Shown here: in pieces, positions 2,006 to 62,222 of the stretch
Layout of the letters: each line of letters begins with the position of its first letter
Numbering within the stretch: position 1 is the stretch's first letter
From: Thalassia testudinum
Taxonomy: Eukaryota; Streptophyta; Magnoliopsida; Alismatales; Hydrocharitaceae
Direction: 5' to 3'
NCBI GenBank assembly: GCA_037157565.1
Contig: JAZHRO010000055.1
Location: 39,339,001 to 39,403,000 of the forward strand
Length of the DNA stretch: 64,000 bases
Position numbers and translations under genes: made by a program
The notes under the pieces: model-generated
The model's input: only the letters and a program-made list of their open reading frames with translations
The model's database searches: none
Told to the model about the DNA's origin: nothing

Positions 2006-3475
2006 GTGGACGGAGGCTTCAGGTGCATTTCGGCACTTCAAGCGGCGAGACTTTTGAGCCAGGGATGTGAGGGCTTCCTAGCTTGTGTGGTGGCAGAGCC
2101 CAGCCCTGTGGCAGACTTCCAGAGCATCCCGGTGGTCAGAGAGTACCCTGACGTGTTTCCAGACGAGTTACCGGGACTACCGCCCGAGCGCGAGATCGAG
2201 TTTGAGATCTCGCTAGTACCAGGGACCAGCCCCATCTCCACCGCGCCATACAGGATGGCACCGCTTGAGTTACGAGAGCTCAAGTCTCAGTTGCAGGACC
2301 TTTTGGAGAAGGGCTTCGTGAGGCCCAGTGCATCTCCCTGGGGAGCCCTGGTACTTTTTGTGAAGAAGAAGGATGGTACCCTATGCCTTTGTGTGGACTA
2401 CCGACAGCTGAATAGGGTCACCATCAAGAACAGATATCCACTGCCGAGGATCGACGACTTGTTTGACCAGTTGCGGGGTGCCACGGTGTTCTCCAAGATC
2501 GACTTGAGGTCTAGATACCACCAGTTGAGGATCAGGGAGGCAGACGTCTCCAAGACAGCTTTCCGCACCCGATACGGACACTACGAGTTTTTGGTCATGC
2601 CGTTTGGGTTGACCAATGCCCCCGCTGCTTTCATGGACCTGATGAACCGGGTGTTTAGACTATACTTGGACTAGTTCGTGGTGGTATTCATTGATGATGT
2701 ACTCATCTATTCTCGAGATCAGACGCAGCACGGACAACACTTGCGGATGGTTCTGGACACACTGAGACGACGTAGGCTGTACACTAAATACAGCAAGTGC
2801 GAGTTCTGGTTGAGGGAGGTGACCTTCTTAGGTCATGTGATCTCTGGAGACGGCTTGGCGGTGGACTCAGCCAAGGTCGAGGTAGTGCTCAGGTGGGAGA
2901 GACTGCGGTCAGTCACTGAGATTCACAGTTTCCTGGGACTGGCAGGCTACTACAGACGATTCATCAGAGGTTTTTCACAGATTGCGCATCCCATGACACA
3001 GTTGACCTGGAAGGACGTGCCCTTCACTTGGACAGACGCCTGTGAGGCCTGTTTTCAGGAGCTGAAGGAGAGGTTGACTTCGGCTCCCGTGCTCACCATC
3101 CCTGACAGTAGTGGCAGGTTCGTTGTGTACATGGACGCCTACCTGCAGGGGTTAGGAGGTGTGCTCATGCAGAGGGGTCACGTTGTCGCTTACGCTTCGC
3201 GGCAACTGAAGCCCCATGAGCATACCTACCCTACCCACGACCTGGAGTTGGCAACTGTCGTCTTCGCGCTGAAGACCTGGAGGCACTACTTGTACGGTGA
3301 GACCTTGGAGATTTTCACAGATCACAAGAGCCTCAGATACCTTTTTGATCAGAAGGAGATCAACATGAGACAGAGACGTTGGTTGGAGCTCCTAAAGGAC
3401 TACGATTGCAGCATCTCCTACCACCCGGGAAAGGCCAATGTGGTGGCTGACGCCTTGAGCTGGAAGGCGCCCGCA
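2006..3475 (+). pseudogene. Tekay reverse transcriptase and RNase H
   Basis: Reverse transcriptase copies the element RNA and RNase H removes the template. Visible motifs are [11 protein letters not shown] before the fingers, CVDYRQLN, the palm segment [31 protein letters not shown] and the catalytic FIDD at 2687-2698. A TAG at 2672 falls only five codons before FIDD. RNase H runs from about 3115 (VVYMDA, with the first catalytic Asp) through [21 protein letters not shown] and [16 protein letters not shown] replaces the usual pattern with Ser after Ala, a local change beside the Asp. Length and spacing are normal and there is no indel. Confidence 0.93.
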
Positions 3476-5053
3476 CACTTGGCCAGTTTACAGTTACAGA
3501 GTTGGAGCCTCTTGGAGGAGGTGGGCAGTTGGCGACCCCTGGAGTTACGGGGACACTGTGGGGCAGTGACTGTGACACGACAGACTAGGCCAAAGCTGAT
3601 AGACCACATCATCACAGGACAGATGGCCAATCCGTACTTGCAGTCCTTCTGCGACAGAGTACTGTCAGGAGACCCAGGGGACTTCTCTTTCACAGGCCAG
3701 GTGCTACGCCTGAGGGGACGGTTGTGCGTTCCCAGGGACGAGGAGCTGTTGAGAGAGCTCCTGACTGAGACACACGGTTCCAGATTCACCATACATCCCG
3801 GAAACACGAAGATGTACCACGACTTGAGACGCGAGTTTTGGTGGAGGGGGATGAAGCGGGATGTGGGTGAATTCGTGCAGCAGTGCTTAGTGTGTTAGCA
3901 GGTGAAAGCCGAGCATCAGAGGCCTGCAGGGCTGCTACAGCCGCTTCCAGTGCCAGAGTGGAAGTGGGAGAGCATCACCATGGACTTGGTGGTGGGTTTA
4001 CCTGTTACCTAGCGAGGACACAACGCAGTCTGGGTAATTGTGGGTAGACTGACGAAGACGGCACGATTCTTGCCGATCCGAGTCACTTTGGGACTAGCAC
4101 AGTTGGCAGAGAGGTATATCCGCGACGTGGTACGACTACACGGAGTTTCGCGAGAAATCGTATCCGATCGGGATACCCGCTTTACGTCCTAGTTTTGGGC
4201 TGAGTTTCAGCAGGCCCTGGGGACGCGGTTGAGGTTTAGTACAGCTTACCACCCCCAGACGGACGGACAGTCGGAGCGCACGATACAGACACTTGAGGAC
4301 CTTTTGCGTGCCTGTGTACTGGACTAGAGGGGCTCTTGGGAGGAGCACCTGCCCCTGGCGGAGTTTGCATACAACAAAAGCTATCACTCGATCATTGGCA
4401 TGGCTCCCTACGAGGCTCTGTACGGACGGAGGTGTACGACACCCTTGAGTTGGGTTGAGGTGGGGACCAAGTGGGAGGTTGGCCCCAGGTTGATCCGGCA
4501 GAGTCAGGAGGTAGTCGAGCAGATCCACAGGCGACTCCGCACTGTCAGGAGCAGACAGAAGAGCTACGCGGATTGGAGACGCAGAGAGGTGCAGTTTGAG
4601 GTTGGGGACCACGTCTTTCTTCGTGTTTCACCCATGAAGGACCTGCAGCGGTTTGGGATGAGAGGGAAGCTCGCGTCGAGGTTTGTGGGGCCCTTTGAGG
4701 TCCTGGAGCAGGTTGGACCCATTGCTTACAGGCTTGCCCTCCCTCCCTAGCTTTCTAGTGTGCACGACATGTTCCACGTGTCCAACCTCAGGAAGTACGT
4801 AGCCGACCTCAGTCACGTACTGAGTCTCGAGAGCGTCGAGGTGGGCGACGACCTGACCTACCCCGAGTGGCCAGTGTAGATTCTTGACCGAGCCGTCCGC
4901 AGTTTGAGACGAAAGCAAGTACCCATGGTGAAGGTTTTGTGGAGGAGCCAGCGGTACGAGGAGGCAACCTGGGAACCTGAGGCGGCAATGCGGGAGCGGT
5001 ACCCGGAGCTCTTCGCGGGTACGTCTTTTCGGATCGATTTCAGTCCTCTTTGA
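3476..5053 (+). pseudogene. Tekay integrase with C-terminal chromodomain
   Basis: Integrase inserts the cDNA, and the chromodomain of chromoviruses is thought to guide it to marked chromatin. The zinc-binding HHCC module lies at about 3770-3898 ([10 protein letters not shown], then CLVC). The catalytic triad is intact: Asp at 3983, Asp at 4166 and Glu at 4274, the D35E spacing of the family. The GPF module is near 4688 (RFVGPFEVLEQVGPIAYRL). The chromodomain covers about 4853-5020 (YPEWPV, VPMVKVLW, YEEATWEPE). TAG stops fall at 3896, 4010, 4190, 4325, 4748 and 4877; the frame ends at TGA 5051. Confidence 0.92.
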
Positions 5054-5158
5054 GTTTGTTATGTTTATATATAATGTTTTTCCTTCACCCTAGTTAGCAT
5101 AAGTTTCGGGGATGAAACTTCCTTTGAGTTTGTTATATTGTTACGAACGTGGCTTCAA

Positions 5159-5196
5159 GACGTCTTTTAAGACGTCTGAGAGGTGGCCCAGACGTC
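5159..5196. repeat. GACGTC palindrome cluster 1 in the Tekay LTR
   Basis: Exact GACGTC sites start at 5159, 5171 and 5191, giving steps of 12 and 20 bp. The cluster is upstream of the TATA-like box, in U3. The 12-then-20 spacing recurs in the SIRE-like LTR at 32330-32362. Confidence 0.9.
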
Positions 5197-5329
5197 TGGG
5201 ATTTGATTTCTGCGGCACGCGCGTTTTCGTCTGCGCGCCTACGCGCGCAGACCTACGACGCCTCTTTTTCCCTCTCCTCCTGCAGGCGCAGGCTGCGCCC
5301 CTCTCTCTCGCTCTCTCTCCCCGCGCGGC

Positions 5330-5337
5330 TTTAAAAG
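5330..5337 (+). promoter_or_regulatory. TATA-like box of the Tekay 3' LTR
   Basis: TTTAAAAG follows a CT-rich stretch and precedes a CT-rich, then GC-rich leader. It lies about 190 bp into the LTR. It was chosen by sequence and position only. Confidence 0.5.
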
Positions 5338-5654
5338 GGCCCTCGTCCTCTCCCTCACTCTCATCTCCTCCGCTCCCTTCTTCTTCTTCCAGCCAGTGCG
5401 AGAGCAAGCGAGCGGCGGCAGCGGCAGCCGCGGCGGGTGTGCGGGAGGAGGCGTTGCGCGAGGGAGGAGACGCTCGGCCGTGAGGGCTCGACCTTGCCGG
5501 GGCAGCTGGAGCCGGCCGGCGGGGGAGCAGCGGGCGCGGAGTGACGCGAGAGGGCTACTGCAGCTCGAGCAGCAGGCAGACGAGGCACGGAGCGGCCGTG
5601 CGTGCCAGGCGGAGAGCACGTCGAGCTCTGATTCTGGAAGTTTTTCCAGAATCA

Positions 5655-5712
5655 GACGTCTGGTCTTCCAACCAGACGACAGTGAAGACGTCTGGAGGAC
5701 TATCTAGATGTC
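5655..5712. repeat. GACGTC palindrome cluster 2 in the Tekay LTR (20-12-20 spacing)
   Basis: Sites start at 5655 (GACGTC), 5675 (GACGAC), 5687 (GACGTC) and 5707 (GATGTC). The steps are 20, 12 and 20, identical to the sites at 32310, 32330, 32342 and 32362 in an unrelated LTR. The two imperfect sites each differ by one base and keep the phase. The cluster is in the transcribed leader. Confidence 0.88.
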
Positions 5713-5817
5713 TGGCAAGTAAGTTATTTTCGTCCTTCTTCCTTTTCTGCGACCGTCCGTACTGAGAACGATGAGTCGGTACGTGCAAGTTCTGAGATTC
5801 GCATCCAACGCGAATCA

Positions 5818-5994
5818 GACATCTGGCCGCAGTGCCAGATGACGAGAACGACTTCCAGACGTCCAGGGTGACCATCGGACGTCTGGGAACTAGGCCAGAC
5901 GCCCCCGCAGGCTTCTGGACGTCTGAGAGACTACGCAGGATAAAGGTACCATCTGACCCACTTTTTGAGACGTCTGGAAGAGGTTCCAGACGTC
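5818..5994. repeat. GACGTC palindrome cluster 3 in the Tekay LTR: six sites in exact 20-bp register plus a pair
   Basis: Sites start at 5818 (GACATC), 5838 (GATGAC), 5858 (GACGTC), 5878 (GACGTC), 5898 (GACGCC) and 5918 (GACGTC), every step exactly 20 bp. A further pair starts at 5969 and 5989, again 20 bp apart, both exact. Intact sites usually extend towards CAGACGTCTG, and the intervening bases show no obvious shared sequence, so this is not an ordinary tandem repeat. Confidence 0.9.
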
Positions 5995-8565
5995 TGATTT
6001 TGGACTGTTTCGTCGTTTTCGACCCGTTTAGGGCCCGTTCGGAGTCCATTTTCTGCGTTTCGAGTTGCGTTCTTTCCGGAATAAGATCCTCTACCCGTTT
6101 CCAGTAATTATATACTGTTCTGAGAAACTCCTTGTGTTTGATCCTTGTGTTAGGACCCCGTTCCTTTGCAGTCTCGGGTGTTGCGGAGGCGCGCGGGATT
6201 TCCGACCACGCCCCCAGTACTTCCGTTGTAGCTGGTAGAGTGGCTTTAGAAATTATTAACATAATTTGTTACAATTATGGAACAATTAATAGAACCTAGG
6301 GCATTGTATGAATCCTAGGAATGAGAAACCAGATTGAATGATAGATCCTAGGGTATTGCATGAATCCTAGGGCTGGAAAACTAGATTGAATGATAGATCC
6401 TAGGGTACGGCATGAATCCTAGGACTGGAAAACTAGCGAAATGAATATACATATTGCAGTCTTGGAAAATGTGGAAAGGAAATAATAGCTGCCTGTAAAT
6501 TGATTTAACAGCTGCCTGTTATGAATAAGTGAACATGATTGAGAATATGGGTTGTATGGACGTGAAACTGGAAATGGTGAAACTTGAATGTGCTGAGTTA
6601 AAAGAGCTGGAACCCTTCGGGGAGTTAGGAGTAGAACTCCTGGAAAGAGAATGAAATGGAACTGAGAAGGAAAGATGTGGAGGTGTGTTGTCTCTTGGGT
6701 ACGTAGTACCAGGGGAAGCACCTGTTACCTGCTTAGTGCAGAGCGGAGCCAGCCGCCCCAGGGACTCGAGGTTAGGTCTAGCCACTTTGTATTGACTTTT
6801 GGCCCTCGCGTACACAGTACCGAGGAGAGCTACTAGTGTAGGGCGAATACTAGCTACCCCACGGGCGCCGGGGTTCTGCTAGCTCACCTACACCGACTTG
6901 TTAGGCCCACTGGGCAAACCAGGGTAGTCAGGTGAGGGTGCGTGACTGTGGAGGGGCAAGGCCCCTGTTTGGTTACTGTGGAGGGGTTGGACCCCTGTTA
7001 CTGAGAGGGCTCTGCCCTATACTGGTTCCGTGCTGTGCTTTGGGCGTACCCGTTAACGGAAACGACTGACCGCGTGCCAGTGCAGGGTAGCTACCCGTGC
7101 GTTTACAGCGCGTGCCGTAGTCACCGTTACGTCTGTCAGTGACCTTAGGGTGGTTGACTGAGAGTAGGATCACCACGGGGGACTCTCCCGGACAGGAGAG
7201 CACCACGTGTTACTTCTACTGTTCGGAAAAGACTGCAATCAAGATCGTTCTCACGAGGAACATTCGAGATCAAGTGAAGGATCTGAGAAATAGATAAATT
7301 ATGAAACAATAGAAAGACGTAAATAAAGGAAGAAAGAAAATAAAACAGCTACTGTACACTTTACTGCTTCTTTAGTTTAGTTGCCACTGTACTCAGCGTT
7401 TCTCTGACGTGTTACACTCGTTACTTTTCAGGACCAGGTGTTGAGCAACCAGGGTCAGCGGCTGCAGAGGACGCTGGGCCGAGTAGAGTCTAGTAGAGTT
7501 ACCACTGTTCTTTTGTGCCCTTTTTGTTCCACTGTAGTGAGTAGTTCTTGTTACTCTCTGTACTATTCTTTGCTCGTAGTTCTTGTTATAGCATAAATGT
7601 TGTTCTATTGTTGTGGTGGTACATGCTGTAGTAGTTCTTTTTCTTACTGCTGTATTTTGTTACTGCTAGTTATATTTCATGTTGAATGTGGCTTATTTTA
7701 CTGCTCTTTTGGTTACTTCCTCGTTGGACGACTAGGTCTTGGGATTAGTCGAGTCGGTCCGGTTCTCGTGTCTCGTAGGGTCTCGGGAATCAGGTCGTTA
7801 CACCCCGTGAGGTTCCTCACAACAATTTCGTTTTGTGAGTATTTGGTATAACGCTCCATCATCAACTCGTCAATATCCTTGGTTTACCTCTTCTGCAAGC
7901 CCATCTTAATATCCTCATTGTTACAGCTAACGTTTGTCCTATTTTGTATTGATATGATTGAAGACGTAAAACTTAGCGCTTGTTGGGTGGCAACCCAACA
8001 CAATTTTGCCTGTATATATTAGGATTCATATTAGCTTATATATATATATATATATATAGATTTTATGTTTATAGGTTTGCCTAGTTGAGCTTCATTGTTG
8101 CAACTTAGAATTTTGCAGGTCATATCCTCCCTTTCTTTACCTTTTCATGTACTTTTTATCATATAATGAGGACATTGCATGAAATAGGCATGGGGGGTGT
8201 GAGTAGTATTATGTTGAGTTTATTTTATCTAGTTCCAGACATTTATATATATATTTGTGTTGAAAAAAATAGGGAAAAAAATGAAAAATTTTGAATTGAG
8301 TTAGAATTGTGGATAAATTTTAGGTATTTACAAGTCACCAACTTTAGAAGAATGTATCGAGAGTTTGTCGCTTAGACTCTTCAGGTTGTAGTCAACTTAA
8401 TCAGCTAGGGTACCTCCTTAAATGCAAATTTGTTTCCCAGTCCTTAACGAGATCTGTTGATTTAGGTTAGCAGGTGATAGAGATGGTAGTACATGGCTTT
8501 TTGGTCCACCCTCTAGTTTAAAAGTTTTTGATGTTTGAGTGTCTCACATTTATACTTACACCTTG

Positions 8566-19960: not shown

Positions 19961-21661
19961 TGATGAGACCACATGTGTGGGCTAATTAATTACATAAATG
20001 ACTAAATATTACGATAATGTCTACATATATAAAGCATACTTTGATACGTAAATAGATAAGTGCTTACATATTTTACTTGCATAAGAGAGTTATATATTCT
20101 AGGGGCATGCATGCATTATATGCATCATTTTATTATTTTCTTGTAAATAACCTTTTCTTGTTACCACGTGCAAGACCCACCGATCACAACAAAGAAACTG
20201 CCTCCGACCTGATTGCCCACCCAAATCAGCCGAGTCTCACACAGCAACCTCAACCGCCTCAGGATCTTCAACCATCTGTTGGAGAGTTGGTGGCGATGTC
20301 TTCAAAAAGGAGTTCTGTGCAGAGAAAAAAATCTCATCATCTTCTATCGTCTCCTCCATCCTTCACCACCGTGAAGAAAGCAAACACCGTGGTTGGTGAG
20401 CGCACTGCGGATTGAAGCAAACATCATTGACGCCGCCTACCCCCGGGTGGTGCTCGGTGACATAGAGCACCACCACCACCATGACCTTGCCTACTGCAAC
20501 CGACCCTAGCCTCCTCCACCAACGCTCGGGCACACCACCCTTGCATGCAGCCTACCTTCTCACCATGCGCAATAGGTGCGCGCAAGCCTCTGGACACTAG
20601 CCTCTGTGCATAGGCTCCCGGCGAGGCCAGACCCAGCCTGGCCATGCTCGTGCACAGTAGCCACCTTGCGCACGCCCTTGTGCACGCATGCATGCCTAAC
20701 CCCCTTGCACGCGCCAACAGCCACCGGCATCTCCTCCACCAAAGCAGAGCCATCGACTTCCTCTTCTTCCTCTTCTTCTCCACCAACAAAGGAGAGGAAA
20801 AGAACCCAAACAACCACTGCTTCCTCCGCTCGCAGCCACCTCCATGGACCTCCATTCTCCATGCTGTCGCCTTCGTTGAGATCATCGTGCCCTCATGAGC
20901 TCGACCACATCCTTAGACGCACCCACCGCGACCCGAGTGCATGCGTGGAGTAACCCACCACCGACGAGCTCTTCCTTGCCGTTCGACGACCTCCAACCAC
21001 CACCATCAATGCCACCATTGTCATCGGGATCCCCTTAGCACCATCAACCTCTTCTGAGCTCTGCACCTCCAACCGGGCCTCCCTCTCCGCTTGCGCACAA
21101 GGGGAACAAGTTCCCCTGTTTCTCTATAGTTAAGAGCCTATTTGTATTTACACATTATGCTATTGTGGAAAACTATTACTTTATTTGATGACTCAAATTA
21201 ATTGAGTGAAATTGCATGCATGCCCTTGAGTGTTTATATTATTTCTCTCATGCACTTAACTCTTACATGTTGAATTTGATACATGCATAAAATCTCATCA
21301 AAAGCACGCACATGACCTAAAAGAGAAAGCCCAATGTCTTGAAGTATAATTACACTACATGCCATTGCAAGTTATTTCAAGGAAAATTACATACATACCC
21401 CCTCATTCTTAAGTCTTTGTATGTTTGCTTCTTTTCGCCTCATTTCACAATAGATTTGAGCATGGATTTCGCACTCGATTGGACGAATACAAAGGAAAAT
21501 TATTCGTAATTTTATAGATCTGTTCTTCCCTGTGGATACAATATCCTAATCATTGTGGTTAGATTTAATGAATTTTTGATATGAGATTTCCACCACATAA
21601 AATACATCAACGACACATCTTTTTATTATAATCATCTTAACAAGCATAAATCTCATTATCA
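19961..21661 (+). repeat. Athila 2 5' LTR (1.70 kb)
   Basis: It starts TGATGAGACC and ends TTATCA, and is homologous along its length to 30007-31721. Open frames on both strands around 20400-20950 are mirrored in the other LTR with many differences and contain low-complexity Pro/Ser/Arg runs; I treat them as noise. Confidence 0.92.
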
Positions 21662-30006: not shown

Positions 30007-31721
30007 TGATGTGACCACATGTGTGGGCTAATTAATTACGTAAATTCCTAATTATTACGATAATGTCTACATATATAAAGCATACTTCGATACACAAATA
30101 GATTAGCGCTTGCATATTTTATTTGCATAAGAGAGTATATATATATTCTAGGGGCATGCATACATTATATGCATCATTTTATTATTTTCTTGTCAATAAC
30201 CCTTTTCTTTTTTACCACATGCAAGACCCACTGATTGCAACAAAGAAACCACCTCATCCTCGCCGACTTGATCGCCCACCCAAATCAGCCAACTCTCGCG
30301 CAACAACCTCAAATGCCTCGGGATCTTTGACCATCCATTGGAGAGATGGCGACAATGTCTTTAAAAAGGAGTCCTGTGCGGAGAAAAAAAATCTCATCAT
30401 CTTTGATCGTCTCCTCCATACTTTACCACTATGAAGAAAGCAAACATCATGGTCGGAGAGTGCACTGCGAATTGAAGCCAACTTCGCCGATGCTGCCTAC
30501 CCCCGGGTGGTGCTCGGCGACAAAGAGCACCACCACCACCACGACCTTGCCTACTGTAGCTGGCCCCAGCCTCCTCCACCAACGCCCGTGCGCACCACCC
30601 TTGTGTGCGGCCTGCCTTCTCATTGCGTGCAACAGGCATGCGCAAGCCTCTGGCAACCAGCCACTGCGCATAGGCTCCTCGTGAGGCCACGCCTGGCCTG
30701 GCCATGCTCGTGCGCAGTAGCCACCTTGCACATGCCCTTGTGCGCGCATGTGCCCTTAACCCCTTTGTGCACGCCAACAACCAGCCGCATCTCCTCCACC
30801 CAAACAGAGCCACCGACTTCCTCTTCTTCCTCTTCTTCTCGACCAACATAGGAGAGGGAAAGAACCCAAACAACCACCCCTTCCTCCACTCGCAGCCACC
30901 TCCATGGACCACCATTCTCCACGCCATCGCCTCCGTTGAGCTCGCAGTGCCCTCACGAGCTCGGCTACGCCCTCAGATGCACCCACCATGACTCGTGTGC
31001 ATGCGAGTAACCCATCGTCGACGAGCTCTTCCTCACCGTCCGGTGACCACTGACCGCCGTTGTCGACACCACCACCATCATCGGGATCCCCTCACCACCA
31101 TCGACCTCCTTTGAGCTCTACGCCACCAATCGGGCCTCCCTCTCCGCGTGCACATGAGGGGAACAAGTTCCCCTGTTTCTCTACAGTAAAGGGCCTATTT
31201 GTATTTACACATTATTCCATTGTGGAACACTATTGCTTTATTTGATGACTTAAATTAATTGAGTGAAATTTCATGCATGCCTTTAAGTGTTTATATTATT
31301 TCTCTTATGCACTTAACTCTTACATGTTGAATTTGATACATGCATAAAATCTCATCAAAAGCACTCACATGACCTAAAAAAGAAAGCTCAATGTCTTGAA
31401 GTATAATTACGCTACATGCCATTGCAAGTTATTTCAAGGAAGGAAAATTACATACATACCCTTGCATTCTTAAGTTATTGTATGTTTTCTTCTTTTTGTC
31501 TCATTTCGCATCAGATTTGAGCACGGATTTCGCCCTCAATTGGATGAATACAAAGGAAAATTATTCGTAATTTTATTGATCTGGTCCTCCTTGTGGATAT
31601 GACATCCTAATCATTGTGATTACATTTAATGAATTTTTGATACGAGATTTCCACCACATAAAATACATCAACGACACATCTTTTTATTGTAATCATCTTA
31701 ACTAAGAGTAAATCTCCATCA
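30007..31721 (+). repeat. Athila 2 3' LTR (1.72 kb)
   Basis: It starts TGATGTGACC and ends TCCATCA and is collinear with 19961-21661. The target duplication ataaa follows at 31722-31726. Confidence 0.93.
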
Positions 31722-31726
31722 ATAAA

Positions 31727-31786
31727 CACCACATGGCCTCCATTAGTTATATACAACTCTCCTCCTTGCTCGTTCTTCCTCCTTTG
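31727..31786 (+). repeat. Athila A 3' LTR, piece 2 (60 bp of CT-rich leader)
   Basis: This is the sequence between two insertions: it follows the ataaa duplication of Athila 2 and ends in ctttg, the duplication of the SIRE-like LTR. It continues the CT-rich stretch found at 33507. Confidence 0.65.
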
Positions 31787-32195
31787 TGTTGGTGCTAGAG
31801 CACCACGATCATTTGTTTTGATGATAACAAAACACGTGTTATTTAACATTTGCAATTTGAGTCCTAGATTTCAGGTCAATTGCAAATGAGGACGTGTTTA
31901 GACGGAGCTCGAGCTCGCATCCAGGACGGATTGGAGGAGCTTGACGGAAAATAGAGGAGGTTCGCGTGGAGCAAAAGATTGGAGATGAAAGACAAGAAGA
32001 ATAGGATAGATTCTTTTTTATCCTTTCATGTATCTCTTGTATTTATTTTCTTGCTCTTTATTTTCCTTAGACATTATGTTAAAGAGCCTCAAAGAACCCT
32101 AACAGTAGTCCTAGGAACACCTGCACAATCCTAGGATACGTAGGTTTTCTGTAGAACACTTAGAAAACCAATATAGGGTTAAAACTGACTTTCCA

Positions 32196-32733
32196 GACGT
32201 CTAATTCAATAATCAGACGTCTGATAAAGGATTTTAAGACGTCTGACTGTTGTTTCAGACGTCTGATAACTGTTAGGCTGGACATAGTTAGTTCTGTCTG
32301 ATGAATTCGGACGTCCAGACCTTATACCAGACGTCTTAGGAGACGTCTGATGACTTTGCCAGACGTCCAGTTAGTGGACCGTTGGCTGGCTTAGAAGACA
32401 CTCAAGAATATGACCGTTAGAGCCTTATCAGACGTCCATAGGACTTCACAGACGTCTGATAAATGACCGTTTTGCCTCGGCTGACCCAAAATCTCTTCTC
32501 AGAGATTTTCTAGCCGTTGCAACGTTTGGAAATCAATTCCCACGGTAAAAGTAGGTTTCCAGACGTCCAGACTTAGTGCCAGACGTCCTCTATGTCGTCT
32601 GATGGACTTGTACAAAAACCCTGTTTAGATCTGATTCAAGTCAGGGAGAAACCCGCATAGAATCAGACGTCTGACCTTGGAATCAGACGTCTTAAAGTGG
32701 CCTTCCAGACGTCTGATGCCATAGTTAGACGTC
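32196..32733. repeat. Eight GACGTC-N14-GACGTC pairs (16 perfect palindromes in 538 bp)
   Basis: Perfect GACGTC sites start at 32196/32216, 32238/32258, 32310/32330, 32342/32362, 32431/32451, 32562/32582, 32666/32686 and 32708/32728. Within every pair the step is exactly 20 bp. The eight 14-bp spacers differ from one another apart from a frequent final ca, so the pairs are not simple copies. Between pairs, steps of 22 (twice) and 12 (once) bring neighbouring pairs to 42 or 32 bp. Chance expectation is about 0.13 sites for this length. Confidence 0.97.
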
Positions 32734-32846
32734 TGATAACCCTGTGAAGTGTAATCATTGTCCTGATTTCGGCCTGATTCTCTTGGGCTTTGCACCCAAC
32801 GGCTATGGAAGCTTTTCCAAGCCTTCCAAAGCCTTCCTAAGGCCTC

Positions 32847-32854
32847 TATAAATA
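32847..32854 (+). promoter_or_regulatory. TATA box of the SIRE-like LTR
   Basis: TATAAATA lies in a small palindromic context (cctctataaatagagg) about 115 bp after the last GACGTC pair, which puts the whole array in U3 as an upstream promoter region. Confidence 0.75.
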
Positions 32855-33506
32855 GAGGGGAACCTTTGTAACACAAGATACACACTAAGAGAAACAAGAG
32901 ACACACCTAAGCAACTTAGTTCCACTCTTTTGTGTCCAATTGAGGCCCTTGCTCTCCAAGCTCTAGTTTCATTCTCTTGAGAGCATCAAGCCTTCGCGCG
33001 CCCGCTCTCCCGCTGTTGATAACGAGAGCGACGTAGCGCCATCGCGTGGCACACGCACCGCGTCATCATCGACGCACTCCTTGCAAAGGGGAGTTTCCTA
33101 TTTCCTATAGAAGCTAGGTTCAATTTTGTTGGCTCTATAGGACTGTTGTTTATTTTTGTATTTTGGTTGGGTATTCGCTTTGCGAATTCCCGTCTCCTTC
33201 GTGGGACAAAATCCTTCTCGTGGAGAGAAGGGGTTGAGGAACGCTACCCTCGTACTTGTAGCGTGGTTGTACTGAGGTTGAATCACCCTCGTTTCAAAGT
33301 GATTCGGTTAGTGGATTTGATCAACTAGGTTGATCGGAAAATCCTAACTCGAGAGGGTTAGGTGGTGGTTTTCACCCGGTTTGGGTTTCCACCTAAAAAT
33401 CTTTGTGTACATTGTGTGATTGCCTATTTTGTGATATTGCTTTTTATATTCAATTCCGCAATTTTATTACGTCACCCCTCCTAGTAGGGACGAAACCTTC
33501 ACTTTG

Positions 33507-33620: not shown

Positions 33621-36365
33621 TGTTTGCGAGGAAAAATCAAGTTTTAAAATCGATGTGTCATAGTATAGGTCGAAATCGCTCGAAAACAAATAAATTTTAT
33701 CACTTGAAGTTTTGAGTCCGAGGTCGAACATAGGGAGTAAATTGGGGTTTAAAAATCAAGAGCACAACATTGGAAAATTGAATATGATATGCAATGAAAA
33801 CTAGAGTTGTAATGCAAAAATGTAAACACAGAAGAATAAAGAAGTCAATGTATGAAGACAAGCACAAAAAATGGACGTCTGATTTGTGAATTAGACGCCT
33901 TAAACTTATGGATGCTATAGTGCTTTATTTCTTCTTTTGATCTCTATCTCTGTTCTTCTCTTGCAGCTGCTTTCTTCCTTCTCCTTCTTTCTCTTCTTCT
34001 GCTCTTGGGCCTGTGCCTTAGCTTCTTTGCCTTTGGCTTCTTCTCTTTCTTCTTCTTCTTTTTCTAGTGGCTCCTCTTTCTTCTGCCTTCAGTTCCTTCT
34101 CCTTCTCTTTCTTCTTCATCCCTTCAACCTCTCTGACTTAAGCTTTCTTCCTCTTCAATCTTGCCTTCTTCTTCCTTTGCTTTTTCTTCTTCTCCTTTCC
34201 TGTGAGAGCAAAGACTACCCCTACCAGCGCTCTCTCTCTTCCTCTTTCTCTCTTAGGCTCGCTCTCCCAGAGCCTTTATCTCGGGTAATCGAGTCAGGTA
34301 CGTGCCCAGGACCAGGCCCACCGGCGTTGAGGATCCTGAGTCAAGTTCAGCGGAAGCCAGGTCAGGAAATGCCAGGTCAGATTTAGTTGTTGAGAGTTCC
34401 CCATTGGGTGAGGAGTGCAGGGTTGAGTATATGGGTCGCACTAGGTCTGCGAAGGCAAGGTCACGGATGAGGTGGTGAGAGGGTGAGTGGGACCTCACCC
34501 AATGGTCAGGAGGCGATAAGCCTACTTTAATTTTTCAATTTATTCAATTGCAGCGCTTCAAGATCTTCCAAGGTGGGACTATCTTCCCACGTCCCTTCGC
34601 GTGCGTCCGCAGCAAGCAATGTTGCTTGATTGCAGCTGATACTGTGGCCTTTAGTGCCAATTGGTTGCCTGGATCTGTGCACAAGGGGAGTCTGCGCAAC
34701 CTGGGGCTATGCACCTAGAGCAGGCAGACCTGGAGCGAGCTCCCAAGGATGCTGCTTGCTTACGTCAATGGTGGCGAACCTCCAGCACTTGTCTTCACGA
34801 AAATGGCCTCGCGGTCTCGTCAGAAAGCTTCACCGAGACACGGAGAATGTGTTGTGGGGGTCGACATGGTGTGGGGCTGTCGGAGTGTGCTTGCCTAGGG
34901 CAGCCTGTGTGCGTGAGAGTGGGTGTGTTCGGGGGGTGTTTTGGGGGTGTGGTGCAGTGAGTGGAGTGAGGGTTTATGATCAGTGAGGTGTTGCGGACCA
35001 TATGGGGTGGTTGGTGAGGCAGATGGAGGTGTGGAGCGGTGAGGATGCCTCGTCGGAGGTCTGGCCAGAGATGAAGAAGGTGATGGTGGTTGCGTGCATT
35101 GAGGGGCATTTTCAAGAAACAAGGAGGGAAAAAGAATTAGAAAGGAGAGAGGACTTAGCTATGTGTAGAGAGATGAAGGGGGAGGCAGAGATGGTGGCCG
35201 GCTCGTATTGCCGTTGCCGGAGATAAAGCACTCAGTGGGGGGAGGATGTCGACGACAAAGGGGTTGTAGAGGCGTCGGCGGGTGTAGCGTGACGCGGATG
35301 AACAGGAGGAAGAGACCCAGCCATTGGTATTGTGGCGAGGCGACGAGGGAAAGAGAGGGGGGTTGCCGGAGCTTGCTGAGCCACTGGCTGGAGGGGGAAG
35401 AGACAAATTAGAGGGATTCCCAGGCCAATTTCAAGCGTGGGAAATGCGAGGTGATCTGGGCATGCTTTTATAGGCCCTGGAGGAAGGAATCGGAAAGCTC
35501 ACTGGAGATGGAAATTAGAAGGAGACCCGAATCTCTCATGCATTCGCATGAGAGATTGGGTAACAAATAGAGCCTCGAATTGTGTTCAAACTGAAGGAGA
35601 TTTCTCAGAGAATCTCCCTTTCAATTTTGAAGGGGATTCTCTGAGAAATCAAAGAGATCTTGCCCTCGAAGTCTCGTCGGAGTAGGATTCCTTCTGCTAT
35701 AATGGCGGAGGGACCAAATTGCAAAGAACGAAGACAAAGATAGGGGGTTTCTGCAGAGGTTTTCAAAAGATAGGGGTAGAAATGTAATTCGGTTGAACTT
35801 GTTTGCAAAGTAGGTCAAGATGAATTCCCCTTAGGTGCAAATTTTGGTACAAACCTAATTTGGACCTACGGAATCCAATGGTGAAGTTGGATTTTGGGTT
35901 TGACCACGTTTGACTGGATAATTTACGTAAAAACTCAATTTAGGATAAATATTTATCTGAAACCCCAATTTAGGTCAAAATAGGTTCTAAGAGCTAAATT
36001 GAAGGTTCTAAACCCTATATAATATTTTTCCATCATTTTAAGATGGTTTTGGTGAATTTTATCCTAACCAGAACCTTGTTAAATCAAGTGGGTCTATTTT
36101 AGGGTTACATGAAGTCATTTAATTACTAGAATTCACATGAACCCTTTTCTGTTTAAACCAACCCACTTTTTATCTTGTTAAGACCATTTAACTTGTGTTT
36201 GTTGTTATACTGCAATGGTAAAATTACAGTTTTCCCCTTGTTTCTTGCTTTTCTCTCAGAATGGTTATTCATTGAGTTCAAACCTCCAATTGGTTATGTA
36301 GGAGCTTTTGTTCTCTTTTTTGGGTCAAAATGAGCTTATTAGGGCTCATGATGGTATTCCCATCT
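33621..36365 (-). repeat. Athila B 3' LTR (2.75 kb)
   Basis: It is collinear with the 5' LTR at 44672-48778 once the nested LTR is removed. Read on the minus strand it begins AGATGGGAAT, where the other LTR has TGATAGGAAC, so the first base seems mutated, and it ends CGCAAACA. A TATA box on the minus strand (TATAAAAG) lies at 35465-35472. A long CTT-rich tract at 33930-34200 is a GA-rich leader in element orientation; the Ser/Leu-rich frame across it is low-complexity noise. Confidence 0.9.
33874..33899. repeat. GACGTC pair in the Athila B 3' LTR
   Basis: GACGTC at 33874 and GACGCC at 33894 are 20 bp apart, the same module as in the Tekay and SIRE-like LTRs. It lies in the leader part of the LTR. 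Confidence 0.7.
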
Positions 36366-41000: not shown

Positions 41001-42061
41001 TTCGGACTCCTCTGATTGCAAGTTTTGATCCTCTTGTGGTTGATCAGAAGTAATCAGGTTGTCCTCAATATACGGTTCATCAACCACAGCCTTGATATCA
41101 CATATCTGTTCTATAACACTGCAGTTAATCCCTTGTTGGGCCTTAAAGATGTCAATCTTCAGTGTTTGGTTCCCGAATTTCAGTTCAATTTGGCCCTCCT
41201 CAAAATTTATATTGGCCCTAGCAGTGGCCAGAAAGGGTCTCCCTAGTATAATTGGTATATCCCTTGGGTTTCTGGAGCATCCATATCCAAGACTACAAAA
41301 TCCACCAGGAAATAGAAATCCCGTACCTTAACGATGACATCCTCAAGAACTCCTTTAAGTGACTTAATAGAACGGTCAGCCAACTGCAATGTCACCTCTG
41401 TCGATTTAAGCTTAGCTTCTTCAAGTTGGTCAAGGAGGGATGTAGGTATTAGGTTTATGGAGGCTCCTAAATCTAATAAGGCTCTGTCAAATTGGGTATC
41501 ACCAATGGTACATGAAATCAGGGGAGTACCTAGGTCTTTTGCCTTAGGTGGAATTTTGCTCAAAATTACAGAGCTAGCTTGCTCTGACAGTACGATTGTT
41601 CTCCCACTTTTGGTTCGCGGCTTACGCTTGGGTGTACACACGTCCTTTAGAAAAAATGTATAAGCCAGTACGTGGCGAATTGCATCCATCAAGGGGATGT
41701 TTATATGGACTTGTTCAAACAGCTTGACCAGATCCTCCTCTGGAGCCACGGGTTTGTTTGTCCTCTTTCCCTTGGTCAAGGCCTCGAGAAATGGAACCTT
41801 GGTTGGTTCCTCTAGAATAGGTCCAGGTTCTTGATCTGGGATAGGGGTGTCCTGGATAACTATCCTAGGGCTTGGGTTACTACCAGGTTGAAAGTGGCTT
41901 GGATAAGGTGGGTCTTGTGTTGTTTTGCCACTATGGGTTGTTACAGAATTCAGTCCTGCTTGGTTTTTGTTCGGAGTTGGCAAAATAGGTGGCTGCTGAT
42001 GAAATCCCACATACGATGTCGAAGCTTCCATCCCGTCGGGTGATGGAATAGAAGGGGCCTA
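38023..42061 (-). pseudogene. pol: Athila B pol: protease, reverse transcriptase, RNase H, integrase
   Basis: From high to low coordinates: protease with an intact DLGASINL motif in a frame at 42031-41243; reverse transcriptase from about 40690 with YIDYRRLN, MPFGLCNAPATFQRYM and an intact FMDD; RNase H with MCDASDFVVGAVLGQ and FSDHTAVRHLL; integrase with a zinc region near 39100-39000, GIDFMGPF and FDGGTHF. Reverse transcriptase to RNase H stays in one frame across 41087-39430, broken only by stops that fit Gln or Arg codons changed by C to T. Integrase needs several frameshifts. The end is taken as TGA at 38025-38023. Confidence 0.9.
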
Positions 42062-44669: not shown

Positions 44670-44921
44670 AATGTTTGTGAGGCGAAATCAAGTTTTAAAA
44701 TCGATGTGTCGTAGTATAGGTCGAAATCGCTCGAAAATAAATAAAACTTATCACTTGAAGTTTTAAGTCTGAGATCGAACACAGGGAGCAAATTGGGGTT
44801 TAAAAATCAAGAGCCCAACTTTGGAAAATTGAATATGATATGCAATGAAAACTAGAGTTGTAACGTAAAAATGTAAGCACAGAAGAATAAAGTCAATGTA
44901 TGAATACAAGTACAAAAAATG

Positions 44922-44947
44922 GACGTCTGATTTGTGAATCAAACATC
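44922..44947. repeat. GACGTC pair in the Athila B 5' LTR, second site decayed
   Basis: GACGTC at 44922 and AACATC at 44942 keep the 20-bp step. The second site has changed further than its counterpart at 33894. Confidence 0.65.
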
Positions 44948-46565
44948 TTAAACTTATGGATGCTACATTGCTTTATTTCTTCTTTTGATCTTTGTCTCTG
45001 TTCTTCTCTTGCTACTGCTTTCTTCCTTCTCCTTCTTTCTCTTCTTCTGCTTTTGGGCCTGTGCCTTAGCTTCTTTTCCTTTGCCTTTGGCTTCTTCTCT
45101 TTCTTCTTCTTCTTTTTCTGGTGGCTCCTCTTTCTTCTGCCTTTAGTTCCTTCTTATCTTTCTTCTTCAGCCATTCAGCCTCTCTGACTTAAGCTTTCTT
45201 CCTCTTTAGTCTTGCCTTCTTCTTCCTTGGCTTTTTCTTCTCCTTTCCTGTGAGAGCAAAACCTACCCCTACCCACGTGTGCTCTCTCTTCCTCTTTCTC
45301 TCTTAGGCTCGCTTTCCCAGAGTCGCTGTCTTGGGTAATCGGGTCAGGTACGTGCCTGGGACTAGGCCCACCGATGTGCGGTGGTGGGCGAGGAGTGCAG
45401 GGTCAGGTATACGGGTCGCACCAAGTTCGCAGAGGCAAGGTCACGAACGAGACGGTGAGAGGGTGAGTGGGACCTCACCCCGTGGTCAGGAGGCGATAAG
45501 CCTACTTCACTTTTTCAATTTACTCAACTACGGCGCTTCAAGATCTTCCGAGGTGGGTGATGTGTCGTTGTGCGTGTGTGTTAAGGAGTGTCGTTATAGT
45601 CGCACTTGCAACGTCGGTTTTAAAATAATTAAACGAAGGTGAGTCCGAGTGTCGGTCTCAAGGAGGTGTGAAAATCAGATTTTTACTTTACCACTTGTTG
45701 TCAAGGAAAGTGCGGAGTTTTGCTTTCGAAAGGTGCGGTTTTGAAAAGTGAGAGAGAGATAGAGAGAGAGAAGGTTTAGGGTTAGAAAGCTCTTTGTTTT
45801 GATCATGCAACTTGAACAGAAATTAAAATGGCAACTGAACGGAAAATAACTTCATTAAACATGCACTTGTAGTTCATGACTTACAACATTAAATACATGC
45901 TTCAACAAAAATAATAAAAAGCTTAAAAGAGAGAGAGAGTGTGTGTGGAGAGCGACGAGGCAGCCACGGCGGTGGAGGAGGCTCCGTCGGCGGCTCGTTG
46001 TCTCCGGCGATTACAAGAGTGCCTAAAGCTATCTAAGAGAGGGGTGGAGTAGTTGCAAGGGGGAGTGGATGCCTTGAATGGTGGTTGGAGGGGGTTTAAA
46101 TAGAGTTAAGGGCTTCCTAAAAGAAGAAGGGGCTTTAGCGACATCCAGAGCATCACTAAAACCGCTTCCAAAAGCGTCGGTGAAGCCCTCCCGCCGTTGG
46201 TCAGCCACCCGCCTCATTCCTTCTCCTCACGCGATCTGCTGTCGCTGAACGGGAGCCATCCGATCAAAGATCAGACGGCTGAGAGTCTTCCTCGCCTGCG
46301 CTGGGATTGCGCCTCGGGCACGCGTGTGCGCCCGCGTCTCCGCTCGGCGTGCGCGCGCGCGTGGACGCTCGTGAGCTGCGGTCGCACCGCATGGCAAGAT
46401 CCCGGTCGCCCGTTGCTGATCGGGCGGCCCAATTTCTCCGCACCTGTCGCCCGTCTTCAAATCCCACTCCGCGCGGCTCGAACTTGCGTCGCGTGGGTGC
46501 GGGCGTGCGCGCTCACCGTTGTGCCACGCCCGTGCTTTGTCGCGGGGACTGTGGGCGGGCACGCG

Positions 46566-46604
46566 AATCTCGACCGTTCGATAGAAGATCGACGGCCGAG
46601 ATTT
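46566..46604. repeat. Inverted repeat in the solo LTR
   Basis: The arms AATCTCGACCGTTCGAT and ATCGACGGCCGAGATT pair with one mismatch and one bulge around a short loop. Confidence 0.75.
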
Positions 46605-46665
46605 GATCTCGGCTGGCTGAAGGCGCGGCGAGCGCAGGGGCGGGGCTGACATGGCACAATCTGGG

Positions 46666-46687
46666 CCGTTGATCTCCAGATCAACGG
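46666..46687. repeat. 22-bp palindrome in the solo LTR
   Basis: CCGTTGATCT and AGATCAACGG are perfect complements separated by cc. A sister palindrome lies at 60660 in the related LTR. Confidence 0.85.
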
Positions 46688-48783
46688 TCAGAACTTCTTG
46701 GACCCATTGTAGGAGCTTCGGATGTCGGATTTGGCCGATCTTGAGTCCGTTGGACTCCGGTTGTCGTTCTGAATCCATCCGTGTGGTCTGATTGCTCATC
46801 TGAGGCCTGCTTTGACAAATGGTTACACAAATGGCCATTAATGTAGTTTATAAGAAATCTTGGTACATGATGCATGCAATGCTCCTATTCTACTTATGTT
46901 GTGCCTTTTATTATAAAGATGGGCCATATTCAACATAATTATCACCCCCTTGTGTAATGTTATCAGTGGGACTATCTTCCCACCTCCCTTCGCGTGCGTC
47001 CGCAGCAGGTAATGTTGCTTGATTGCAGCTGATACTGTGGTCTTCAGTGCCAATTGGTTGCTTGGATCTGTGCACGAGGGGAGTCTGTGCAACTTGGGGC
47101 TATGTACCTGGAGCGGGCAGACATGGAGCGAGCTCCCAAGGATGCTGCTTGCTTGCGTCAATGGCGGCGGACCTCCAACACCTGTCAACATGAAAATGGC
47201 CTCGCGGCCTCATCAGAAAGCTCAGAAACTTCGCCGAGACACAGCGAATGTGTTGTTGGGGTTGACATGGGGTGGGGCTGCCGGAGTGTGCGTGCTTAGG
47301 GCACCCTGTGTGTGTGAGAGTGGGTGTGTTCGAGGGGTGTTTTGGGGGCGTGGCACGGTGAGTGGAGTGAGGGTTTATGATTAGTGAGGTGTTGCGGAGC
47401 TTATGGGGTGGTTGGCGAGGTGGATGGAGGTGTGGAGCGGCGGGGACGCCTCACTGGAGGTCTGGCCGAAGATGAAGAAGGTGATGGTGGTTGCGTGCGT
47501 CGAGGGACGTTTTCAAGAAATATGGAGGGAAAAAGAATTAGAAAGGAGAGAGGACTTAGCTGTGTGTAGAGAGATGAAGGGGGAGGCAGAGATGGCGGCC
47601 AGCTCGTATTGTCGTCGCCGGAGACGAAATAATCAGTGGGGGGAGGACGGCGACGACGAAGGGGTTGTAGAGGCATCGGCGGGTGCGGCGCGATGCGAAT
47701 GAACAAGAGGAAGAGAACCCTGCCACAGGTATTGTGGTGGGGCGATGAGAGAAAGAGAGGGGGGTCGTCGGAGCTTGCTGAGCCACTGGTCGGAGGGGGA
47801 AGAGATGAATTAAAGGGATTCTCAAGCCAATTTCGAGCGTGGGAAATGCAGGGTGATCTAGGCATGCTTTTATAGGCCTTGGAAGCACGACGAGCTCGTC
47901 AGAGATGGAACTTAGAAGGAGACCCGAATCTCTCATGCATTCGCATGAGAGATTGGGTACCAAATAGAGCCTCGAATTGTGTTCAAATTGGAGGAGATTT
48001 CTTAGAGAATCTCCCTTTCAATTTTGAAGGGAATTCTCTAAGAAATCAGAGAGATCTTGCCCTCAAAGTCTTGCCAGAGTAGGATTCCCTCTGCTATAAT
48101 GGCTGAGGGACCTAATTGTAAAGAATGAAGACAAAGATAGGGGGGTTTCTGCAGAGGTTTTCAAAAGATAGGGGTAGAAATGTAATTGGGCTAGACTTGT
48201 TTGCAAAGTAAGTCAGGATGAATTCCCCTTGGATCCAAATTTTGGTACAAACCTAATTTGGACCTAAGGAATCCAATGGTAAAGTTATATTTTGGGTTTG
48301 ATCATGTTTGACTGGAAAATTTACATAAAAACTCAATTTAGGGTAAATATTTGTCTACCTCAATTTAGGTCAAAATAGGTTCTAAGGGCCAAATTGAAGG
48401 TTCTAAACCCTAGAGAATATTTTTTCATGATTTTTAGAGTGTTTAGGTGAATTTTATCCTGACCAAAACCTTGTTAAATCAAGTGGGTCTATTTTAGGGT
48501 TACATGAAGTCATTTAATTCCTAGAATTCACATGAACTCTTTTCTGTTTGAACCAACCCACTTTTTATCTTGTTAAGATCATTTGACCTATGTTTAGCCC
48601 ATGAGAAAACCCATTGTTGTACTGCAATGGTAAAATTGCAGTTTTACCCCTTGTTTCTTACTTTTCTCACAAAATGGTTATTCATTGAGTTAAGACCTCC
48701 AGAGGGTTATGTAGGAGCTTTTGTTCACTTTTCTGGGTCAAAATGAGCTAGTTAGGGCTCATGATGGTGTTCCTATCAACCTT

Positions 48784-61145: not shown

Positions 61146-62222
61146 GAGACCCCCTCCATACGAAATTCTCATCCCTTCCTTCTCTTCTCTACCCCTCCAA
61201 AGCTCAAGAGAAGCTTGTCCCACACCCGGGATGCTTCTCGCGAGATAAAGTCCAAATTTTCGTCCCCCTTCGGAAGTGGATCCCGCAACGACGACGGCGT
61301 GCTGCTTCGTTCCCGTTCTGCTTCGTCCTGCTTCGTTCCCCTTCGTCCAGGCGTCGTCCCGTCCGGCTCGTCCTCCAAGTAACCGTCGAGGAGGATTTCT
61401 CTCTCCCTATTCTTTTTACTGCTTTCTAGTATAGATTTACTGCTTTCTAGTGTAGTTTTGCTCGTCCTCCAAGCAATCGTCGAGGAGGACACTTCTCCCT
61501 CCATTTTTTTAATGCTTTCTAGAGTAAATTTATCGCTTTCTAGAGTAATTAATTTATGCTTTGTAGTTGTAAGAATGAAATGAACAATCTCCTTAATGAT
61601 AAATTCCTTGTTTATTCTACATCTCATTTTGATTTCTCTGTGTAATATTCTTTTTCTCTCTTACTCTCTCTCTCTTCTATGTATTGTAAATAATTAGATA
61701 GTTTTAAATTGAATTATTCCGTGACAAATAAAAAGAAATGCGTAGTTTTTAAATCAAACGTCCGCCTCCCTGTGTTCGACCCGGAATTTTAATTTCGGTA
61801 TAAATTTTATTTGTTGAACACGAATTCTTCGCTTTCGAACTACAACGACAGGTTTTCCAAAATCGAACACGTCAGCGTAGCCATTCGTAACGTTCAACAG
61901 CCACCCATTAAAAACTAATTTTTATAATTGAAGATTAAATGGGTTAAGTGTTGGCGTGAAAATGACTAAGTGTGGACATAAGACACAGTGAAGAGGATAA
62001 GGAAAAGATAAAGGAGAACAAAGAATGCTTAAGGAGAATTGAAAGAAGAAGAGGAGAAGAATAAGAGGAAAAAGAGAGTGAAACAGGGTAAAGGAAAAGA
62101 GAGGGAATGAGAGAGAGAGCAACGACAGAGAAGAAAGGAAATAACAAAGAAGAAGAAAAGGGCTGAAGAAAGAATGAAGGAAAGAATTAGAAAGAAGAGG
62201 GATCAAACTTCTTGCATGTTCA

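Follow-up and report, generated by a model that had tools for sequence, protein, structure and literature searches.

Palindromic boxes in Sirevirus LTRs

Palindromic repeated motif (RM) boxes were described by Bousios et al. (2010) in 13 Sireviruses, in most of which a TATA box is located shortly downstream (PMC2829016). An element carries 8 to 32 boxes, counted for the LTR and the linker together and clustered in the LTR, and the motif was called Sirevirus-specific in comparison with classic (Ty1/copia) elements; in the sections of that paper covered here, no common binding factor is reported (PMC2829016). The locus analysed here is located in a window (the whole stretch of DNA that was analysed) of 64,000 nucleotides from the genome of Thalassia testudinum, and bears 16 GACGTC palindromes in the U3 region of a Sirevirus-type LTR, designated family A. 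The array shares several properties with the RM boxes: the box of Usier, GTCGGACGTCCGAC, has a GACGTC core; elements without ENV have no linker boxes, and likewise none are present in the full-length family A relatives L009, L013 and L017; and the clustering of at least eight boxes upstream of a roughly central TATA box is also found in the window LTR (PMC2829016). The array starts at LTR position 410 and spans about 530 bp, slightly outside the usual ranges (200-400 for the start and 300-500 bp for the span), and 12 of its 16 sites lie in the upper half, compared with 92% in the paper (PMC2829016). The CGG-CCG core, however, is rare here: the immediate flanks of GACGTC are G and C in 2 of 99 paired sites, many of which are copies of one another, and A and T in 67. 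Since the CGG-CCG signature is so uncommon, the array is regarded as RM-like and not as a typical RM; Tnd-1 is likewise an exception as to the core signature (PMC2829016). Another difference is that, in this genome, a Ty3/gypsy LTR also bears such an array. Nothing on the distances between RM boxes was found in the main text of the 2010 paper (PMC2829016).

In maize, the palindromes of Sirevirus LTRs are hotspots of small RNAs (PMC10760457, PMC5311732). Like the present array, the maize clusters occupy the cis-regulatory region of the LTR and have strong predicted folding, but their sequence is different (CACCGGACNNNGTCCGGTG), the emphasis is on hairpins and siRNAs, and no spacing is given in the sections covered (PMC10760457, PMC5311732). 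The as-1 and as-1-like elements recognised by TGA bZIP proteins also have tandem sites for two dimers, the spacing of which affects binding and activation; they are composed, however, of TGACG sites, whereas here T at position -1 is absent from the 99 paired sites and the main step is 20 bp (PMC9360754). A locked 20-bp pairing was not found in the literature surveyed, and a description might be contained in Bousios et al. (2016). The preliminary description, which knew of no account of such a structure, was thus right as to the pairing but not as to palindromic boxes upstream of a Sirevirus TATA box, which were published in 2010 (PMC2829016). In relation to the literature surveyed, the boxes themselves are known, whereas the locked 20-bp pairing appears to be new, and so does its recurrence, with identical 20- and 12-bp steps, in an LTR of the Ty3/gypsy type.

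The array and its carrier

The array is carried by a solo LTR flanked by the 5-bp target duplication CTTTG (31782-31786 and 33502-33506). The features of this region, in window coordinates, are the following.

31787..33501, plus strand: solo LTR of family A, non-autonomous Sirevirus (Ty1/copia) elements, with TG...CA ends and target duplication
32196..32733, unstranded: GACGTC-N14-GACGTC array of eight pairs in U3, found by sequence scan
32194..32265, unstranded: pairs 1 and 2, four-site block with steps 20-22-20, imperfect inverted repeat (repeat, fold and covariation tests)
32310..32367, unstranded: pairs 3 and 4, four-site block with steps 20-12-20, as in the gypsy family B
32431..32456, unstranded: pair 5, offset from the adjacent pairs by about half a helical turn (gaps of 69 and 111 bp)
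32562..32587, unstranded: pair 6, within a diverged direct copy of the pair 3 block
32662..32737, unstranded: pairs 7 and 8, four-site block with steps 20-22-20, imperfect inverted repeat
32846..32854, plus strand: predicted TATA box, CTATAAATA, which starts 118 bp after the start of the last site

In the window LTR, the 16 sites occupy LTR positions 410-942 and the TATA box, which would act as the promoter, starts at position 1060 of 1715. The layout is similar in seven LTRs of the family, where the first site is found at 410-442, the last at 900-947 and the TATA box at 1038-1065. The U3 position that had been proposed for the array, upstream of a TATA box, is supported, and so is the assignment to a SIRE-like element, by Sirevirus end structure in the full-length relatives (L009, L013 and L017, with an internal region of 1.5 kb) and a copia gag in L009. 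Because the window copy is a solo LTR, the end structure was checked on a full-length relative. In L009, the junction reads TTTCA-ATTGG-TATCAGAGC, i.e. the CA end of the LTR, ATTGG and the primer binding site TATCAGAGC, and the 3' attachment site AT/TG (AAAAAGGGGGAGAT/TG) follows the last polypurine tract. AGGGGG tracts occur five to six times in the terminal ~280 bp of each of the four internal regions analysed. A Retrotran_gag_2 domain (copia-type gag) was identified in L009 (E 8.4e-9), and the two ORFs that were scanned in its 1.5-kb internal region contained no pol domain, so the family was taken as non-autonomous. The identity between the two LTRs of an element, 98.1% in L009 and 97.6% in L013, points to recent activity.

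Pairing of the sites

The GACGTC sites of the array start at 32196, 32216, 32238, 32258, 32310, 32330, 32342 and 32362 in the first half, and at 32431, 32451, 32562, 32582, 32666, 32686, 32708 and 32728 in the second. The listing agrees exactly with the eight pairs reported in the preliminary description, each GACGTC-N14-GACGTC (20 bp from start to start), and with the gaps of 12 and 22 bp given there between three neighbouring pairs. The whole window contains 35 GACGTC sites; in 100 dinucleotide shuffles of it, the mean was 5.77 and the highest count 10. When 16 sites were placed at random in the same span, eight equal distances were obtained in none of 20,000 trials, the largest number being six; it should be considered here that the window copy was picked for its perfect array.

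A larger set of 234 kb comprised the window and 17 stretches of 10 kb sampled elsewhere in the genome, which were set at round coordinates and are not a random sample. Among the 64 palindromic hexamers, a locked distance was found in this set for GACGTC alone, besides the TATATA/ATATAT microsatellites: 50 GACGTC pairs were at distance 20, and the next-best other hexamer, CCTAGG, had five. Exact 20-bp pairing was observed for 99 of the 152 GACGTC sites. For the other 53, one-mismatch partners were found at exactly 20 bp in 21 cases and in no more than four at each of the remaining distances between 8 and 60. The 39 exact pairs of the sampled 170 kb belong to family A (34), to a diverged A relative in L025 (2) and to a diverged relative of family B in L009 (3), the last two assigned by reading the sequence and the surrounding matches.

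Spacing in the whole genome

Exact matches were counted in the assembly from which the window comes (4.26 billion bases), with the reversed pattern as a control. GACGTC-N14-GACGTC matched 478,420 times (control 3,075). The adjoining spacings were at or below the control level: N15 gave 2,769 matches (control 2,813) and N7-N13, pooled, 7,728 (control 13,078). Smaller peaks were observed for N6 (85,986; control 5,715) and N16 (49,205; control 5,775). Thus, within the range counted (N6-N16), the histogram has the form that had been predicted, with a sharp peak at k = 14 and lesser ones at 6 and 16. The N16 peak looks like the layout of one family, since the family A gap sequence was seen by eye at nearly all N16 places among the matches listed. 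The 478,420 matches are copies and not independent events, because the lock within one family is largely a matter of shared ancestry; the array could have originated independently only twice, or just once if the module moved between elements.

Conservation and origin of the array

Conservation within family A was estimated for seven LTRs from three sampled loci, in comparisons between loci and leaving out the window and L007. The share of identical comparisons was 75.7% for GACGTC (284/375), 50.1% for other NNCGNN hexamers (830/1,656) and 50.8% for hexamers lacking CG (21,888/43,071). The mean pairwise difference between nine LTRs, with sites defined on the window copy and thereby favoured, was 0.073 in the sites, 0.045 in their flanks (two bases on either side), 0.155 in the spacers, 0.097 between the pairs and 0.104-0.116 elsewhere. 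CpG retention in the copies relative to the window showed no clear difference between the sites (103/125) and the other CpGs of the LTR (330/416), and the informative test is that of whole hexamers and not CpG retention alone.

Family B was represented by eight LTR pieces, 47-93% identical (47-89% for the B relatives), with L031 and the relative of B in L009 left out. GACGTC was identical in 362 of 467 comparisons, against 444 of 3,225 and 6,166 of 29,681 for the two other classes of hexamers, respectively, although six of the eight pieces had been chosen for holding a pair and the figures may be somewhat inflated if the aligner draws GACGTC sites together. After removal of every exact pair of the selected copies, the values were still 161/266 and 444/3,203. 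The array is a real, strongly conserved composite site.

The inner 10 bp of the eight family A spacers had a mean of 2.89 identities, compared with 2.67 after shuffling (p 0.20), so the average likeness of the spacers does not exceed that after shuffling, and they are not recent tandem copies. The difference of all spacers, as it was originally stated, holds for this average likeness but not for every pair: a 43-bp direct repeat, now diverged (33 of 43 positions identical, sites included), contains pairs 3 and 6, and the two end blocks, pairs 1+2 and pairs 7+8, are inverted repeats with arms of 34-36 nt (79-83%, p 0.005). These duplications are old, but units are also being gained at present in L017 and L007, with a fresh duplication of a 20-bp unit inside the array of one LTR in L017 (1385-1425) and a 52-bp insertion inside the array in L007. 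An absent excess at k = 14, or an origin of the pairs as recent tandem copies, had been named as findings that would refute the preliminary interpretation; the excess is present and the pairs are not, on the whole, recent copies, yet old duplications built part of the array.

Neighbouring pairs are separated by anything from 12 to 111 bp. A constraint on distance is argued chiefly from the contrast between these variable gaps and a spacer whose length is fixed at 14 while its sequence is at background. No pattern of helical-turn steps was found in the changes of gaps between family A copies in 14 of 18 loci (L005, L006, L008 and L030 were left out by hand, as were matches shorter than 350 bp); many of the 19- and 21-bp values in this set reflect selection, since loci had been picked for an N15 or N7-N13 pair.

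A second carrier of the Ty3/gypsy type

Another array of GACGTC sites is located near the beginning of the window, in the 3' LTR of an element designated family B.

5140..7802, plus strand: 3' LTR of the Ty3/gypsy family B, ten GACGTC sites with 20- and 12-bp steps
5159..5196, unstranded: three sites 12 and 20 bp apart
5655..5712, unstranded: 20-12-20 block, two of its four sites decayed by one base
5858..5994, unstranded: run of four sites spaced 20 bp, one of them with a single-base decay, followed by a pair

The 5' LTR, 94% identical to the 3' LTR, lies mostly just upstream of the window (part of it in L026). The domains are arranged in the order Retrotrans_gag, RVP_2, RVT_1, RT_RNaseH, Integrase_H2C2 and SH3_Tf2-1, and family B is a Ty3/gypsy element by its gypsy gag and protease and by the position of the reverse transcriptase and RNase H upstream of the integrase. 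Its relatives L027 and L028 have the layout 20-12-20-12-20, with the steps of family A pairs 3 and 4. The LTRs of families A and B match in short pieces only, none exceeding 48 bp, and no likeness was found between their spacers (p 0.97), all of which are 14 bp long. Within family B, the spacers are alike (p 0.0007). Most family B sites are situated downstream of TTTAAAA at 5330, the TATA-like motif taken as the promoter; a TATATA also occurs at 6109. A U3 enhancer is less easily reconciled with this layout, unless the promoter is the later motif, TATATA at 6109.

As a separate observation, the step left after decay of the middle site in 20-20 runs of family B is 40 bp in L032 and 41 bp in both L029 and L033, as though loss of the site had released the distance. 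The observation concerns these three copies; the window and L001 keep 40 or 20-20.

Possible function of the paired sites

The array probably represents the cis-regulatory (enhancer) part of the U3 of a Sirevirus-type LTR retrotransposon, composed of paired dimer sites for a host protein. The sites, their spacing and positions, the classes of the elements and the conservation are shown by the sequences; the protein, its cooperativity and the activation are proposed from them. The working unit would be a pair of sites, mostly R-GACGTC-Y, with centres exactly 20 bp, or about two helical turns, apart. Each palindrome may be bound by a dimer of a host DNA-binding protein, and two dimers might touch or be bridged on one side of the helix, which would fix the length of the 14-bp spacer and leave its sequence free. 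The presence of many pairs upstream of the TATA box might then increase transcription of the element.

The preliminary description had pointed to the ACGT core as a site of plant bZIP proteins. A classical TGA/CREB-type bZIP (TGACGTCA, as-1) is unlikely, since T at -1, necessary for the TGACG half site, was found in none of the 99 paired sites: the base at -1 was A in 88, G in 10 and C in 1 (a purine in 98 of 99), and a pyrimidine occupied +7 in all 99. Many of these sites being copies of one another, it may be added that T at -1 was also absent from the 36 sites of 18 distinct pair types; among the unpaired sites, it was found in 10 of 53. The classical bZIP/TGA site, considered on account of the ACGT core, is disfavoured by the -1 base.

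The sites had also been suggested to fall on nearly the same face of the DNA. For the pair, 20 bp is about two turns, and the steps of 12, 22, 32, 42 and 52 bp are near whole helical turns, but the gaps of 69 and 111 bp are half-integral and phasing of the full array is weak. In family A, p was 0.04 at a period of 10.5 bp and 0.16 when the period was scanned; in family B, it was 0.94 at 10.5 bp and 0.035 when scanned, with a best period of 10.0. General helical phasing beyond the pair was thus not retained.

Since the gypsy lineage has the same sites and the same 20- and 12-bp steps, two unrelated classes of elements appear to use the same host factor, and the shared spacing suggests convergence on, or exchange of, docking sites for one host protein. 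Tentatively, one dimeric host protein could read a two-dimer code (20-bp GACGTC pairs with 12-bp joins) that the two superfamilies acquired separately. If this is true, the genome would now contain roughly half a million identical composite sites, which could act to titrate the factor or to rewire it. It is possible too, if somewhat doubtful, that one element captured the array from another by recombination or template switching, a route that is compatible with an enhancer function. Families A and B have the same core, flank preference and 20/12-bp steps, and copies of A are found inside or next to B-type sequence (L009 and L007), all of which speaks for such a transfer; the shortness of the A-B matches (up to 48 bp) and the unlike spacers argue against it.

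An enhancer of paired sites has to be weighed against the maintenance of the pairs as RNA or cruciform hairpins, each palindrome pairing with its neighbour and the four-site blocks folding into longer stems that serve the element or feed small-RNA silencing by the host, as has been proposed for the palindromes of maize Sirevirus LTRs. The array has a folding energy of -218.6 kcal/mol, compared with -149.8 for shuffles (z -10.5), although such a score is expected, since sites that are self-complementary would fold however they were arranged. Inverted repeats are formed in blocks 1+2 and 7+8, and an excess of siRNAs at such palindromes in maize is recounted in the literature (PMC10760457). The stems, however, do not extend into the spacers: among 26 spacer clusters (the distinct 26-mers among the matches listed plus those in the fetched loci), 35 of 130 inner positions were complementary and about 35.8 were expected, with p 0.53 for family A alone and 0.37 for family B alone. 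Of ten flank comparisons made without correction, the two on third positions showed pairing slightly above the shuffled level (11/18 and 12/18, p ~0.035 each). Where the commonest letters of a block position do not pair, a pair is created by 38 of 65 single changes, whereas at paired positions in 23 family A rows, 48 single changes break the pairing and 28 keep it (as G-U or a standard pair), and of the double changes, three keep it and one breaks it. A hairpin loop does not require exactly 14 nt. Maintenance by hairpins is thus unlikely, as spacer complementarity, flank pairing and block covariation speak little for it.

The array might also be a fossil without function, in which a 20-bp unit was spread by slippage and unequal exchange and then copied by transposition. 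Such events are indeed recorded in the fresh duplication in L017, the insertion in L007 and the diverged copies of pairs 3 and 6, and the likeness of the family B spacers and the loss of CpGs in the sites about as often as elsewhere are in line with it. Ancestry alone, however, predicts the opposite of spacers that diverged to background while keeping their length, and leaves the same steps in a gypsy element unexplained. As whole sites are better conserved than the neighbouring sequence, the functionless reading is already disfavoured, and it appears quite improbable. For the preferred reading, an enhancer of paired dimer sites, the fixed 20-bp pair, with site and length kept and spacer sequence free, provides a concrete probe, the 26-bp unit with variants of its spacing, for finding the factor. 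That Ty1/copia and Ty3/gypsy elements have these steps in common would be a clear case of two unrelated classes relying on one host regulator or of enhancer exchange, and with 478,420 exact pairs the elements could be a large sink for, or source of, the sites of the regulator.

Neighbouring elements and repeats

Among viral contigs, one stretch matched the extended pair and was taken as a chance match. In L009, the full-length family A element is located inside diverged gypsy-type (B-like) sequence bearing 20-bp GACGTC pairs (2386-7379). In L017 (1-10000), a period of ~3.15 kb corresponds to an LTR-internal-LTR-internal-LTR arrangement of family A, which was possibly formed by unequal recombination.

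The solo LTR in the window has repeats on both sides. Direct repeats that are 86% identical (19961-21654 and 30007-31716), placed around gag (22946) and integrase (27404) pieces, probably represent an LTR element directly upstream of it. Just downstream, another LTR element is probably represented by direct repeats of 86-90% identity (33621-36364 and 44672-48777), with minus-strand ORFs between them, including a protease-like one (41243-42058). Closer to the end of the window (61366-61550), a tandem repeat with a period of 93 and 1.9 copies contains embedded 21-bp repeats.
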